A DNA stretch of 44,548 bases from Sedimenticola sp. (GTDB lineage: Bacteria; Pseudomonadota; Gammaproteobacteria; Chromatiales; Chromatiaceae), in NCBI GenBank assembly GCA_027030425.1, contig JALVEW010000031.1, forward strand, positions 1 to 44,548, read 5' to 3'. The notes beneath the pieces were generated by a model. It had not been told where the DNA came from and ran no database searches. It saw only the letters and a program-made list of their open reading frames with translations. Of this stretch, positions 2,334 to 13,762 are shown one piece after another (positions within the stretch are counted from its first letter, which is position 1; every line of letters begins with the position of its first letter). The position numbers were made by a program, and so were the translations under genes.

Positions 2334-3032
2334 ATGAAGATTCGCAGCAGCATACTGGCGGCGACCATGATGATTCTGCCCTGGTCCGCCCAGGCCCTGG
2401 AGCCCTGGGATGCCTCCCGCGCCACCCGCTGGCCGGGGGTGGAGGTCATCAAGCCAGAGGATGCCCAGATCGGCAAGCAGATCGGCAATCTGCCGTTTCA
2501 TGACTTGTGGGGAAGGGCTGTTTCCCTGCACGACTTGGCGGGAGAAAGAGGTACGGTTGTTGTCGTGCGCGATCCAAAGTGTCCGGTTTCCCGGCGTTAC
2601 GGCCCCCGTATTTCCCAACTGGGGCAAGGATTCGTGGAAAAAGGCTTTTCTTTCGTATTTATCTATCTCAACGAATCCCTGAACCTGGAGGCACTGGAAG
2701 ACGATGCCCGGGGCTTGCGCCTGCCCCAGGCCACCATGGTGGGCAAGGGAAGTTTCGTGCTGGCGGCGGCGCTGGGCGTGAGAAGCACCGGCGACGTTTT
2801 CGTTCTTGATGATGAGTACCGGCTGATATACCGGGGCGCCATCGACGACCAGTACGGTTTTGGCTATACCCAGGAAGCGCCCACCCATCACTATCTGCGT
2901 AACGCCCTGGAAGCGGAACTGCGGGGGTGGCCCGTGCCGGTACCCGCCACCCTGGCGCCCGGCTGCCAGATCGATGCCGATCCCGCAAAGGATGAGCTGT
3001 TGCCCATTCCGCCGGGTGCCGCCCTATCCTGA
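2334..3032 (+). CDS. Secreted redoxin / thioredoxin-fold protein
   Basis: A 232-residue protein with an N-terminal signal peptide (hydrophobic residues 7-17, likely cleavage after A-Q-A at 19-21). The body looks like a thioredoxin/peroxiredoxin-like fold: a beta strand of repeated valines (75-78) followed by D-P-K-C-P-V-S-R (80-87) in the place of the redox centre, with a single cysteine (C83) and a serine rather than a second cysteine. A later segment reads VFVLDDEYRLIYRGAIDD, the strand-turn-strand typical of redoxin C-terminal halves, and a last cysteine lies in APGCQID (about 216). A good Shine-Dalgarno (AGGAG, 8 bases upstream) supports the ATG. Similar redoxin-like domains occur in bacterial periplasmic proteins, sometimes fused to copper or cytochrome domains. 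The substrate is unknown. It stands alone between hrpA and the SEC-C gene. Confidence 0.75.
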   Translation: MKIRSSILAATMMILPWSAQALEPWDASRATRWPGVEVIKPEDAQIGKQIGNLPFHDLWGRAVSLHDLAGERGTVVVVRDPKCPVSRRYGPRISQLGQGFVEKGFSFVFIYLNESLNLEALEDDARGLRLPQATMVGKGSFVLAAALGVRSTGDVFVLDDEYRLIYRGAIDDQYGFGYTQEAPTHHYLRNALEAELRGWPVPVPATLAPGCQIDADPAKDELLPIPPGAALS

Positions 3033-3092
3033 TACGGGGTCCAGGCTTTATAATCGGTTCCTTTGTAAGAAAGCATCAAGGAACTCAGCCCC

Positions 3093-3581
3093 ATGTCCAA
3101 CTGTCCCTGTGGCTCTGAACGCGAATATTCCGCCTGTTGCGAGCCCATACTCACCGGCGCCGCGAAGGCGAAAACCGCCGAAGCCCTGATGCGCGCCCGC
3201 TATACCGCCTACCAGAAGGATGCCATAGGCTTTCTCGGCGACAGCCTGCATCCCAACAGCCGCCATGACTGGGATGAAGCGGCCACGCGCAAGTGGGCCG
3301 AGCAATCCGTGTGGCTGGGGCTGGAGGTTCGCGCCACCGAGCGGGGCGGTGAAGAAGATGATACAGGCACCGTGGAATTCATCGCCACCTACAATGAAGA
3401 TGGTGTATTGCGCCGGCATCATGAAAACAGCCTGTTTAAGAGAGAGAACGGCCGCTGGTATTATGTGGACGGCAAGATGCCCGCGCCGGAAACCGTCAAG
3501 CGGGAGACGCCCAAGGTGGGCAGGAATGACCCCTGTCCCTGCGGTAGCGGCAAGAAATACAAAAAGTGTTGTGGAGCCTGA
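3093..3581 (+). CDS. ychJ: YchJ-family protein (UPF0225) with two SEC-C-like zinc motifs
   Basis: 162 residues. Both ends carry a SEC-C type metal-binding motif: near the N-terminus C4, C6, C15, C16 ([13 protein letters not shown]) and at the C-terminus [14 protein letters not shown]. The SEC-C motif was first described at the C-terminus of SecA, where it binds zinc. Between them is the UPF0225/DUF1186-like central domain with conserved MRARYTAY and a WLGL strand. E. coli YchJ is about 150 residues with the same layout; its function is not established. The stop codon touches the next start codon directly, so the transglycosylase gene downstream is probably co-transcribed. A TATAAT-like hexamer lies at 3049-3054, but no convincing -35 accompanies it. 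Confidence 0.9.
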
Positions 3582-8375: not shown

Positions 8376-10292
8376 ATGACCGTAGAAGCACACAAGGAAA
8401 CCATGGAATTCCAGGCGGAGGTCAGCCAGGTATTGAACCTGGTGATCCGCTCCCTTTACAGCAACAAGGAGATTTTTCTGCGCGAGCTGATCTCCAACGC
8501 GTCCGATGCGGCGGAGAAGCTGCGCTTCGAGGCCTTGTCTGACGATGCCCTGTACGAGGATGATCCCAACCTGCGCATCCGCGTATGGACAGACAAGGAC
8601 GCCGGCACCCTCACCGTGTCTGATAACGGCATCGGCATGACCCGCCAGGAAGTCATGGATACCATCGGCACCATCGCCAGTTCCGGCACCAAAAAATTCC
8701 TCGAGAACCTCAGCGGTGATGCGGCTCAGGACAGCCAGCTCATCGGCCAGTTCGGCGTGGGCTTCTATTCCGCCTTCATCGTCGCCGACAAGGTGACCCT
8801 CACCACCCGCCGCGCGGGCATGGAGCCGGAACACGGGGTACGCTGGGAATCCACGGGAGAGGGCAGTTACAGTATCGAAACCGTGGAGAAGCAAGACCGG
8901 GGCACGGAAATCACCCTGCACCTGCGGGAAGACGACAAGGAATTCCTCGATGGCTGGCGCCTGCGCCAGATCATCAACAAGTTCTCTGATCACCTGGCCA
9001 TTCCCATCGAGATGCCCAAGGAAGCCGTGGGCGAGGATGAAGAAGACAAGGACAAGGAAACCGAGTGGGAGCAGGTGAACAAGGGCGTGGCCCTGTGGAT
9101 GCGCAGCAAGTCCGAGATCAGCGACGAGGAATACAAGGATTTCTACAAGTCCATCTCCCATGATTTCGAGGACCCTCTGGCCTGGGTGCACAACAAGGTG
9201 GAGGGCAGCAATGAATACACCTCCCTGCTGTACATCCCTTCCAAGGCGCCCTTCGACCTGTGGGATCGGGAGCAGAAACACGGGGTGAAGCTGTACGTGC
9301 GCCGGGTATTCATCATGGACGAGGCGGACAAGCTCATGCCTCATTACCTGCGTTTCGTGAAGGGCGTGGTGGATTCGGATGACCTGCCTCTCAACGTCTC
9401 CCGGGAGCTGCTGCAGCACAACCGCAAGATCGACACCATCCGCAGCGCCAACGTCAAGCGTATCCTGGGCCTGCTGGAGAAAATGGCGAAGAACGAGACG
9501 GAGAAATACCAGAAGTTCTGGAACGAGTTCGGCAAGGTGCTCAAGGAAGGCCCGGCGGAGGATTTTGCCAACAAGGAGCGCGTGGCCGGCCTGTTCCGCT
9601 TCGCCACCACCAAGTCTGAAGGCGACGAACGGACCGTCTCCCTGGACGAGTACATCGAACGCATGGCGGAGAAGCAGGAGAAGATCTACTACATCACCGC
9701 TGAATCCCTGGCCGCGGCCCGCAACAGCCCCCACCTGGAGATCTTCAAGAAGAAGGATATCGAGGTGCTGCTCATGACCGACCGGGTGGACGAGTGGCTC
9801 ATGTCCCATCTGTATGAATACAAGGGCAAGAGCTTCCAGTCCGTGGCCAAGGGCCAGCTGGACCTGGGTGAACTGGAGGACAAGGAAGAAAAGGAACAGC
9901 TGGAAAAAGTGGCCGAGGAACACAAGCCCCTGCTGGAGCGCCTCAAGGAAACCCTGGGCGAGAAAGTCAAGGAAGTACGCGTATCCAGCCGCCTGGTGGA
10001 TTCTCCCGCCTGCCTGGTGGTGGACGAGTATGACATGAGCCAGAATCTGGCGCGGGTCCTCAAACAGCTGGGGCAGGATGCGCCCATGCCCACGCCCATC
10101 ATGGAGCTGAACCTGGAGCATCCCCTGGTGCAAAGGCTGGAGCAGGAATCCGGAGACGAGCGCTTTGCGGAACTGGCCCGCCTGCTCTATGATCAAAGCC
10201 TGCTGGCGGAAGGTGGCCAGCTGGAGGATCCGGCCGGGTTCGTGCACCGATTGAACCGTTTGATGCTGGATATGTCTCAAGAAAAAGCCTGA
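8376..10292 (+). CDS. htpG: Molecular chaperone HtpG (Hsp90)
   Basis: 638 residues, normal length for bacterial Hsp90. The GHKL ATPase domain is at the N-terminus: [14 protein letters not shown] (catalytic E and Mg-binding N), DNGIGM and the glycine-rich lid [11 protein letters not shown]. The middle domain has the catalytic arginine loop ([11 protein letters not shown]), and the C-terminal dimerisation domain ends in [10 protein letters not shown] with no MEEVD tail, as usual in bacteria. It works as an ATP-driven dimeric clamp in the cytosol with DnaK. An AGGAG site precedes the ATG. The sigma-32-type promoter upstream indicates heat-shock control. The gene appears monocistronic; a 12-bp inverted repeat follows it. 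Confidence 0.98.
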
Positions 10293-10308
10293 CCCTTTGC
10301 CGGGAAAT

Positions 10309-10413
10309 GCAGGAAGCAGTACACAAAATGGGACACTGCTTCCTGCTATCCTCAGGTCCAGGTGAACAACCTGGGCCTGGGTTTCAGGCGGAAGGTCCGG
10401 CAGGGAGCCGGAC
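10309..10413 (+). other. Hairpin-rich leader between htpG and the matrixin operon
   Basis: A perfect 12-bp inverted repeat at 10309-10320/10335-10346 with a 14-base loop follows htpG; no T-run follows it, so it is not a typical intrinsic terminator. Two more small hairpins follow: CCAGGT/ACCTGG near 10358-10374 and GTCCGGC/GCCGGAC at 10395-10401/10407-10413. They could form a structured 5' leader for the gene at 10444. No known riboswitch consensus was recognised. Confidence 0.45.
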
Positions 10414-10443
10414 GGAATCAACAGCAAAGGCGAGTTCAGTATC

Positions 10444-11049
10444 ATGCGCAAACCTACCAGAATACTGTGGCCGTTTCTGGCCCTTATCCTTCTGCCGGGG
10501 CTGCTCCTGGCTTCTTCCGTAAAGCAGGTGGACATGGCGGAGATCACCGGGGATGCCCAGCTGATCTTCGAGGGGCGGGTGGTCGGCACCCGCGTCGAGC
10601 AGGCGCCGGGATCGCGGGCCATTCACACCTGGGTTCGTTTCGAGGTTCTGGATGTCATCAAGGGAAGCTACAGCGAACCCGTCATCGAGCTGTCTTTCCT
10701 GGGCGGCACCCGTGGCGACTTGACGGTGAAGGTTTCCGACATGCAGATTCCCGCCATGGGTGAACATGGCATCTATTTCGTCGAGGACACGGGGCGCCGC
10801 CTGGTCAATCCCTTGGTGGGCTGGGCCCAGGGCCACTTCCTGGTGAAGTACGACAGAACCCTGAAGCGCCAGATGATCACCACACTGGATGGCCAGCCGG
10901 TGAAAGACATCGATTTGTCAGCCCGCAAATCCCGTTTCGCGGAAATCAGCCGGGGCGTGGCACATGGCGTGATTACCACCGACAAGTTGAGCAGGGATCT
11001 GATCGATCCCGCGGATTTCAAGTCGCTGATCAGGGAGATGGCAGAATGA
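10444..11049 (+). CDS. Secreted beta-rich protein coupled to matrixin (NTR/TIMP-like pattern, tentative)
   Basis: 201 residues with a signal peptide (hydrophobic 8-23, cleavage probably before S24-S25). The mature part has no cysteine. It opens with a strand pattern: DAQLIFEGRVVGTRVE (38-52), then AIHTWVRFEVLDVIKGS (59-75), VIELSFLGG (80-88), LTVKV (93-97) and EHGIYFVED (107-115). The order 'D-x-x-(hydrophobic)-GRVV ... (T)xVxFEVxxVIKG ... GE(x)YF' resembles the OB-fold NTR domain of eukaryotic TIMPs and related proteins, though without their disulfides. The rest (about 133-201) looks helical and charged. Its stop overlaps the start of the matrixin gene (ATGA), so both are translated together. 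A role as inhibitor, chaperone or substrate adapter of the protease is inference. I know of no characterised function. Confidence 0.7.
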   Translation: MRKPTRILWPFLALILLPGLLLASSVKQVDMAEITGDAQLIFEGRVVGTRVEQAPGSRAIHTWVRFEVLDVIKGSYSEPVIELSFLGGTRGDLTVKVSDMQIPAMGEHGIYFVEDTGRRLVNPLVGWAQGHFLVKYDRTLKRQMITTLDGQPVKDIDLSARKSRFAEISRGVAHGVITTDKLSRDLIDPADFKSLIREMAE

Positions 11050-12209
11050 ATACCAGGAATATCATTGCCGCGCTGGTTCTGGGGCTGGGCGGCAGTTTCA
11101 ACGCCGGGGCCTATGTGCTGGACGGTTCCAGCTGGCCGGAAGGCAAGACCACTTTCCACATCGATATCAATCTCAAGGGCGCGGCAACCAGCCCCAGCGG
11201 CATTTCATGGAATGACGCCTTTCGCGAGTCCGCGGAAAAATGGAATGCCCAGTCGAATTTCGTCTTTACCGTGGATACCACGGACCCTTCCCATCCCTGT
11301 GCCGGCGTAGGCAGCTATCCCCAGGACGGTTTCCGTAACGGCGCCAACTTTCATCCCAAGGTATGCAACCAGGTGGACGGCACGGAAGACGATTACGGCA
11401 GCAAGACCCTGGCGGTGACCGTGAGTTATGTCTACACCAGCAAGCCCGAGGAAAAGGTGGAAGCCGACATCTTTTTCAATGACGCGGAATCCTGGGATAT
11501 CTATGGCGGGGCGGCACGTAGCCAATTCGATTTCAAGCGCGTGGCTTTGCATGAACTGGGCCATGTTCTGGGCCTGGGGCACGAGGAGAGCAACCCTGCC
11601 ATCATGCAGCCAACCGTGGGAGATACTTATACCCTGCAGGCCGATGATATTGCCGGCGCGCAATCCCTGTATGGCGGAAGCGGAGGGCCAACGGATCCCC
11701 CCATACGCATGTCCATCGAGGAGCCCTTCAATGGCGATGTGAAGGCGGGCATCAGCAACTTCCGGGGCTGGGTGGTTTCAATGAATCCCCTGGTGTCGCT
11801 TACCCTGTACCGTGATGGGATATTGTTCGACACCCTGGATCACAATGGTAAACGGGTGGATGTGGGCAACAAATACCCCGATTACCCGGGATCCGAGAAC
11901 TCCGGGTTTTCCTTCACCACCAACTTCGGCATCCTCTCCGCGGGACAGCATGAGTACCGGTTGGTCGCCCGAGACAATCAGGGGAATACCCTGGAGAAGA
12001 CCGTCACCTTCGATGTCCAGCGTTTCGATGATGCCTGGGTGGGGGACGACAGTCTCATTTCTCTGGACAACGCTGCCGTGAGCATTGCCGGAAGCCGCGA
12101 AATACGCATTGATGGCATGAGCCACAACGGCAAAGAATATCGCGTAATACTCAACTGGAAGAAAGCAACGCAAGGCTTTGATGTTAAAGAAATAACAAAA
12201 ACGCAATAG
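11046..12209 (+). CDS. Secreted matrixin-type zinc metalloprotease with Ig-like C-terminal domain
   Basis: 387 residues: signal peptide (6-22), catalytic domain (about 24-200) and a beta-sandwich-like domain (about 215-325), then a short tail. The zinc site is HELGHVLGLGHE: H169, H173 and H179 as ligands and E170 as the general base, with the Met-turn M187 in AIMQP. This is the metzincin signature of the matrixin branch (M10-like). Two cysteine-containing loops (C85, C107) could form a disulfide. No cysteine-switch propeptide (PRCGxPD type) is present; the catalytic domain begins directly after the signal peptide. The C-terminal domain (IEEPFNGDVKAGISNFRGWVV) matches a pattern often seen in proteobacterial secreted proteins and may bind a surface or substrate. 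Likely exported; the substrate is unknown. Confidence 0.92.
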   Translation: MNTRNIIAALVLGLGGSFNAGAYVLDGSSWPEGKTTFHIDINLKGAATSPSGISWNDAFRESAEKWNAQSNFVFTVDTTDPSHPCAGVGSYPQDGFRNGANFHPKVCNQVDGTEDDYGSKTLAVTVSYVYTSKPEEKVEADIFFNDAESWDIYGGAARSQFDFKRVALHELGHVLGLGHEESNPAIMQPTVGDTYTLQADDIAGAQSLYGGSGGPTDPPIRMSIEEPFNGDVKAGISNFRGWVVSMNPLVSLTLYRDGILFDTLDHNGKRVDVGNKYPDYPGSENSGFSFTTNFGILSAGQHEYRLVARDNQGNTLEKTVTFDVQRFDDAWVGDDSLISLDNAAVSIAGSREIRIDGMSHNGKEYRVILNWKKATQGFDVKEITKTQ

Positions 12210-12327
12210 CTGCGTAAGCCCCGCGTTTTGCCATAAGCCGGGTAAATCCCGCTATTTGCAGGCTCGAATACTCAGGGTCACTGCACTGTGGCACACTCGG
12301 GGCACCAACATCAATCAAGGGGGCTGA

Positions 12328-12981
<654 letters not shown>

Positions 12982-13530: not shown

Positions 13531-13762
13531 TGTACAGGATGTACGGTATGCCGCGGGCGCAGGGATGCGCAGGAGCGGCGATGTACAGGATGTACGGTAT
13601 GCCGCGGGCGCAGGGCACTGGAACCGTTCCTGACGGTTCCAGCATTTCCTCCATCCATGGAGGTCATGCGCAGGAGCGGCGATGTACAGGATGTACGGGC
13701 AGATAACTGCTCCCTGCGTGATCTGCACTTCCGCCATCCATGGCGGTCGTATGCCGCGGGCG
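13531..13762. repeat. Cluster of direct repeats and small palindromes
   Basis: A unit that begins TGTACAGGATGTACGG and runs on into TATGCCGCGGGCGCAGG is complete at 13531-13563 and 13582-13614, and its first 16 bases recur at 13683-13698. A 32-bp direct repeat (13566-13597 and 13667-13698) is identical in both copies. GTATGCCGCGGGCG recurs again at 13749-13762. Between them are perfect palindromes: 13620-13640 (GGAACCGT/ACGGTTCC), 13648-13663 (CCTCCAT/ATGGAGG) and 13731-13746 (CCGCCAT/ATGGCGG). This is a typical gammaproteobacterial dispersed intergenic repeat mosaic. There is no credible coding in it, and the spacing is too uneven for a CRISPR array. Confidence 0.8.

Follow-up and report, generated by a model that had tools for sequence, protein, structure and literature searches.

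How does a bacterium tolerate a secreted matrixin of its own that is made without a zymogen form, and could the protein encoded immediately upstream be its dedicated inhibitor? Two coupled genes on a Sedimenticola contig raise these questions, and we analysed them within a stretch of 44,548 nucleotides (the window). An earlier note on this DNA had proposed a bacterial matrixin with a partner resembling the TIMPs, which are usually regarded as animal proteins.

Both ORFs lie on the plus strand, and the ATGA overlap described in the earlier note is present (Table 1). The partner-matrixin pair occupies the interval (window 10293-12333) between adk and a left-flank ORF that we take to be htpG from sequence knowledge. 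In the genus member G008, a 99% complete genome with neither a partner nor a matrixin gene, htpG directly adjoins adk, and the pair has therefore been gained or lost as a unit at this site. The nearest named relatives of the window's partner protein come from Sedimenticola MAGs. Because gene, gene order and motifs persist in homologs of as little as ~26% identity, the pattern at this locus is not due to chance. Promoter and terminator scans gave results that were near shuffle expectation or uninformative. Further along the window (13535-13614), just 3' of a thioredoxin-like gene, lies a degenerate 25-bp tandem repeat of 3.2 copies, whose minus-strand translations are repeats of the CARGIPYILYI type.

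Table 1 Features of the partner-matrixin locus (positions in the window).
Feature	Position	Strand	Basis
Partner gene, 201 aa	10444..11049	+	ORF; AlphaFold2 model; conserved upstream of matrixins
Matrixin (peptidase M10) gene, 387 aa	11046..12209	+	Pfam PF00413; PDB phmmer matches to MMPs; structure match
ATGA stop/start overlap coupling partner and matrixin genes	11046..11049	+	Sequence
Partner Sec signal peptide (predicted), residues 1-23, ends LLLA	10444..10512	+	Sequence; homolog -1 residues
Partner mature N-terminus (predicted) S24-S25-V26, proposed zinc-chelating plug	10513..10521	+	Homolog conservation; TIMP residue 1 alignment
Matrixin signal peptide (predicted), residues 1-22, cleavage AGA/Y	11046..11111	+	Sequence; model residue 1 = Y23
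MMP-like catalytic domain, no propeptide	11112..11684	+	Model, structure match
C85 and C107, likely disulfide (matrixin)	11298-11300 and 11364-11366	+	Invariant in 41 aligned paired matrixins
Zinc site HELGHVLGLGH (H169-H179)	11550..11582	+	Conserved in homologs
Met-turn M187	11604..11606	+	Conserved in homologs
Two C-terminal beta-rich modules (Ig-like ~residues 218-325, then small beta module)	11685..12206	+	Model secondary structure, lower confidence
htpG (presumed), left flank	8376..10292	+	ORF; homologs in relatives
adk, right flank	12334..12981	+	ORF; homologs in relatives

The window protease is a true matrixin (M10A). It matched Pfam Peptidase_M10 (PF00413) with an E-value of 3.7e-18 and human MMPs in a phmmer search of PDB sequences. 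The metzincin site read earlier (H169-E170-x2-H173-x5-H179 with M187) is present, and both the HExxHxxGxxH motif and the Met-turn are invariant in nine homologs. A model built from 41 sequences (pLDDT 82.5) shows an MMP catalytic domain, for which the best structural match was 8b2q_A, karilysin from its complex with potempin A (Z 18.4, 161 aligned residues, rmsd 2.8); MMP-2 (Z 18.1) and MMP-13 followed closely. C85 and C107 lie in a DPC-x-G...NG...F...CG loop that marks the paired matrixin subfamily described below.

No cysteine-switch propeptide is present in the matrixin, and the catalytic domain begins straight after the predicted signal peptide. Y23, residue 1 of the model, aligns with karilysin residue 35, the start of the karilysin catalytic chain, so that cleavage by signal peptidase alone would create the same N-terminus as activation normally does in MMPs. 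The start without a propeptide stands as the earlier note had it, but it is not special to this protein. A cysteine-switch propeptide is usual in vertebrate MMPs and is not a defining trait of bacterial M10A members; karilysin has a short propeptide, and several partner-less gammaproteobacterial matrixins likewise begin straight after the signal peptide. Since these partner-less enzymes also have no propeptide, we dropped the argument that a matrixin of this type specifically needs an inhibitor. Many propeptide-less bacterial matrixins have no partner, and an inhibitor is accordingly not obligatory.

Predicted fold of the partner protein

The partner of the window carries a predicted signal peptide, no lipobox and not a single cysteine, and it contains the GRVV, FEVLDVIKG and GEHGIYF segments that had first drawn attention to it; the mature chain is cysteine-free in 71 of 74 homologs. 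Sequence searches of Pfam, NCBIfam and the PDB returned no match for the window's partner, and the A4 partner profile gave chance matches only against PDB sequences. Apart from two weak NtA matches given below, no member of the family matched a TIMP or NTR entry in Pfam, a tblastn search found no phage homolog, and three of the 74 members weakly matched an unnamed PHROG.

An AlphaFold2 model based on 74 diverse homologs was confident (pLDDT 90.3, pTM 0.86) and strand-rich. Its 11 best Foldseek matches in the PDB were all of TIMP or NTR type (TIMP-1, TIMP-2, agrin NtA, PCOLCE NTR), with probabilities of 0.85-1.00 but E-values of 0.016-0.08. Re-alignment by VIA placed N-TIMP-3 first (Z 8.7, 116 residues, rmsd 3.0), about level with complement C5 C345C and agrin NtA (8.3), followed by TIMP-1 (7.9) and TIMP-2. 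The structural scores are modest, the best Foldseek E-value being 0.016 and the best Z 8.7. A confident fold unrelated to OB or NTR domains would have spoken against the proposed resemblance; the PDB matches are instead headed by TIMP/NTR folds. The partner is thus predicted, with good support, to adopt a TIMP/NTR-type OB fold, and the features ascribed to it earlier (secreted by prediction, cysteine-free, strand-rich, TIMP/NTR-like) agree with sequence and model.

By sequence and by its cysteines, the partner is not a member of the TIMP family. A profile comparison with the N-domains of human TIMPs (hhalign) was not significant (probability 0.2%, E 0.36); it covered the N-domains of TIMP-1 to -4, that of TIMP-3 being identical to 3cki_B. 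The sole short local match in this comparison falls in the same register. The proposal of a bacterial matrixin with a TIMP-like partner is partly supported: the observation is confirmed and fold and pairing agree with it, while at the sequence level the partner is no TIMP.

NTR domains that are not protease inhibitors (agrin NtA, C345C, PCOLCE) match the partner model as well as TIMPs do, and two of the 74 family members weakly match Pfam NtA (E 0.0099). By analogy with agrin NtA and the NTR domain of PCOLCE, both of them binding modules, the partner could be an NTR-type targeting or enhancer subunit that delivers the protease to a surface or substrate and does not block it. We consider this improbable, as the conserved length and sequence of the partner's N-terminus and its alignment with TIMP residue 1, both presented below, fit insertion into an active site better.

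Pairing with one matrixin subfamily

Within the genus, the partner was present in 10 of 15 genomes. The next gene was a matrixin in nine of these ten, and the tenth is cut off by the contig end at that point. Among the five genomes without a partner, four had no M10 match and one had a weaker, different match. A GTDB scan with the close partner family (one genome per species, ~85,000 species) yielded 76 partner loci, mostly from Gammaproteobacteria, with some Desulfobacterota-type MAGs and single MAGs labelled Bacteriovoracaceae, Acidobacteriota, Verrucomicrobiota and Anaerolineae. A matrixin homolog adjoins the partner in 55 of the 76 loci (54 downstream, 1 upstream; the plain pair L073 is counted here). 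The remaining 21 comprise one locus cut by a contig end and 20 unlinked copies.

Co-occurrence was equally evident in a class-wide sample of 369 genomes, in which an M10 match was found in 16 of the 19 genomes with a partner vs 57 of the 350 others (Fisher p = 8e-10). Conversely, all 11 matrixins of this sample whose score against the profile of the paired subfamily was 80 bits or higher stood beside a partner gene. The genome survey suggested by the earlier note thus supports the association, and pairing of the partner with one matrixin subfamily is highly specific. Distances of partner and protease correlated with r 0.82, a value obtained without control for the species tree and given little weight.

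The earlier note had held that frequent occurrence of the first gene without a matrixin neighbour would count against the pairing. This objection mostly fails, although 20 of the 76 copies are indeed unlinked: those examined came mostly from one Pseudohongiella-like clade, where they lie beside an amidase gene. Genomes with an unlinked partner had an M10 match elsewhere in 14 of 19 cases, the partner being present in each; eight of the 19 had no M10 match or weak ones, and most of these are MAGs. When 11 matrixins were fetched from such genomes, nine belonged to the paired subfamily, scoring 145-449 bits with its profile, and two fell outside; none of 20 partner-less matrixins exceeded 75 bits with this profile.

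The unlinked genes of the Pseudohongiella-like clade are those of L094, L097, L103, L118, L125, L136 and their relatives. At L097, L103, L118, L125 and L136 the partner adjoins a convergent amidase-like gene, and any cognate-type matrixin found in these genomes is located away from it.

In five loci (L028, L058, L064, L067 and L072), partner and matrixin form a single ORF, with the partner domain on the N-terminal side in all five. The fusions, the reciprocal linkage (11 of 11) and the co-occurrence with one matrixin subfamily even where the genes are unlinked leave hardly any room for the view that the partner is a mere operonic neighbour, a generic OB barrel that does not interact with the matrixin. 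The modest Foldseek E-values, the failed TIMP profile comparison and the 20 unlinked copies are the observations that would suit it.

Several loci depart from the simple arrangement. The window's own genome contains a second, very divergent pair (L018, G000:C268), in which the matrixin extends up to 2587 and the partner spans 2598-3392; this matrixin carries further C-terminal repeats, including modules resembling SLH domains. One natural fusion, L028:5413-8913 (G004:C80), encodes 1166 aa and joins a partner domain to a matrixin followed by repeated beta modules and, at the C-terminus, SLH-like repeats, which have similar counterparts in L018 and L019. Two matrixin homologs beside a partner gene (L107:6438-7748 and L146:532-2283) have lost HExxH and are probable pseudo-enzymes. 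The one at L107 reads ARQIGYAIGLLD where the motif has been lost, and two active-looking copies lie upstream of it.

Predicted mature N-terminus and proposed mechanism

The ends of secreted proteins usually vary. Across the partner family, the signal peptidase -1 position was A, G or S in all 69 distinct homologs and lay at a constant distance from the core strand. The predicted mature positions +1/+2 were [ST][ST] in 64 of the 69 and position +3 was [IVL] in 67, a count from which 15 of 92 partner frames, mostly divergent or truncated, are absent as they could not be anchored. The core strand (L/F-V/I-F; L-I-F in the window) begins at predicted mature residue 17 without indels. Unlinked copies keep an N-terminus of the same length and sequence, and the length from N-terminus to core is held in three of the five fusions; the other two, which are divergent, have the core at residues 16 and 15. 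The equivalent core of TIMPs, L/V/I17-V18-I19, follows C1-[ST]2-C3, and structural alignment puts the partner's predicted mature residue 1 on TIMP residue 1 (3cki, 6mav, 1br9, 2j0t).

TIMP-2 binds the catalytic zinc through the Cys1 amine and carbonyl, occupies the primed subsites with residues 1-5 and places Ser2 in S1' (PMC3779175). The earlier note had reasoned that a partner without an N-terminal cysteine would have to act by a different mechanism. This is not required: the zinc ligands in TIMPs are the N-terminal amine and carbonyl, and since the partner has the same spacing and the [ST][ST][IVL] end, its missing cysteines need not change the mechanism.

We therefore favour, as the likely reading, an enzyme-inhibitor operon in which the partner, a TIMP-fold inhibitor lacking cysteines, uses its N-terminus to plug the zinc of the active site. 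We take the two genes for the probable bacterial equivalent of MMP/TIMP, with inhibition as the function that we infer. The matrixin would be exported by Sec and born active, with signal peptidase uncovering the N-terminal Tyr that in other MMPs becomes free only once the propeptide is gone. The partner, translated first and also exported, would fold as a disulfide-free TIMP/NTR-type OB barrel, and its mature Ser-Ser-Val would enter the primed side of the matrixin active-site cleft. There, the free alpha-amine and the first carbonyl would chelate the catalytic zinc, with the position-2 Ser/Thr occupying the S1' pocket. Bound in this way, the protease would stay inactive while in the periplasm or close to the cell, until diluted, displaced or needed. 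Against inhibition speaks the absence of the disulfides that brace the inhibitory ridge of TIMPs, the partner having no cysteines.

The position of the partner would also suit a different role. Its gene comes first in every downstream-linked locus and its domain is N-terminal in all five fusions, as a prodomain would be, and the matrixin has no prodomain of its own. The partner might hence be a detached propeptide or a foldase that aids folding of the matrixin and its passage across the envelope, any inhibition being secondary and transient. We regard this as unlikely. Partner-less matrixins of similar architecture exist without a helper, the [ST][ST][IVL] end and the exact N-terminal length have no obvious role in a chaperone, and unlinked copies keep the same N-terminus. 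The predicted fold, moreover, is that of inhibitors and binding modules. Inhibition is favoured over a prodomain role because of this fold and the conserved N-terminus.

A wider proposition could, in our judgement, fall either way: that bacteria hold a genuine counterpart of MMP/TIMP, a cysteine-free NTR inhibitor with a TIMP-style N-terminal zinc-chelating wedge, inherited together with a propeptide-less matrixin in Gammaproteobacteria, Desulfobacterota and further phyla and sometimes fused to it, its ancestry shared with TIMPs or its mechanism re-invented on the same fold. If true, one could test whether the MMP/TIMP partnership goes back to bacteria or has two separate origins. The partner would then also be a small scaffold, free of disulfides, for inhibiting metalloproteases, and it would account for a cell's tolerance of its own matrixin without a zymogen form.

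Comparison with known systems

Systems of this general kind, in which an inhibitor-like gene stands beside a bacterial metzincin gene, are known (potempins, PMC7296668; Mtz-Tim). What appears to be new, within the libraries searched, is the partner family itself, together with its fold, its wide distribution, the fusions and the TIMP-like register of its N-terminus. In the literature on bacterial NTR/TIMP proteins, we found the Listeria paper alone as a direct precedent, and its authors state that they, in turn, came across no report of TIMP-like proteins in bacteria (PMC8235301). By analogy, the partner would work most like TIMP and AprI; it departs from TIMP in cysteines and sequence, from potempin and Tim in the lipoprotein feature, and from AprI in fold.

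With the animal TIMPs (MEROPS I35), the partner shares the predicted NTR/OB fold, a putative matrixin target with HExxHxxGxxH and MMP fold, the spacing from mature N-terminus to core (residue 17, the partner's cleavage site being predicted) and Ser/Thr at position 2. Unlike TIMPs, it has no cysteines or disulfides (the Cys1, Cys3 framework), with Ser/Thr replacing Cys1, and neither a C-terminal TIMP domain nor significant sequence similarity, and it is encoded in an operon with one cognate protease.

Listeria Mtz-Tim likewise consists of a bacterial metzincin gene beside a gene for a predicted TIMP-like protein. Tim is a TIMP-like lipoprotein, the system is of phage origin, and the likeness of Tim to TIMP rests on Phyre2 (PMC8235301). 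As published, Tim is encoded after its protease and cleaved by it, whereas the partner, by prediction soluble, is encoded first and belongs to a family found in Gram-negative bacteria, with fusions. Cleavage of the TIMP-like lipoprotein by the Listeria metzincin frees a fragment that sensitises the cell wall (PMC8235301), and the matrixin might similarly cleave the partner as a substrate, releasing an effector fragment that acts on the envelope. This seems very unlikely to us: the partner has no lipobox or cysteine, so nothing needs release, the gene order is reversed relative to Listeria, and the fusions carry both proteins on one chain.

In Tannerella, potempin genes lie directly upstream of the protease gene (PMC7296668), as the partner gene does here, gene position alone being compared. 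PotA inhibits karilysin, the closest solved structure to the window matrixin (PDB 8b2q). No potempin was among the best 50 structural matches listed for the partner. Work by Ksiazek and colleagues from 2023 is said to describe an OB fold for PotA. Potempins are lipoproteins that block their targets with loops, and the lipobox cysteine of such an outer-membrane lipoprotein is absent from the cysteine-free partner.

AprI-type inhibitors insert their N-terminal end at the zinc and fold as a lipocalin-like barrel. AprI and Erwinia Inh (PDB 1jiw, 1smp; MEROPS I38) resemble the putative inhibitor described here as secreted bacterial proteins directed at metzincins. They differ from it in having one disulfide and a serralysin (M10B) target, whereas the partner has a predicted NTR/OB fold, no cysteine and a matrixin (M10A) as its mate. 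Their mature chains begin with Ser-Ser-Leu (1smp_I, 1jiw_I), compared with S-S-V in the window and [ST][ST][IVL] in the partner family.
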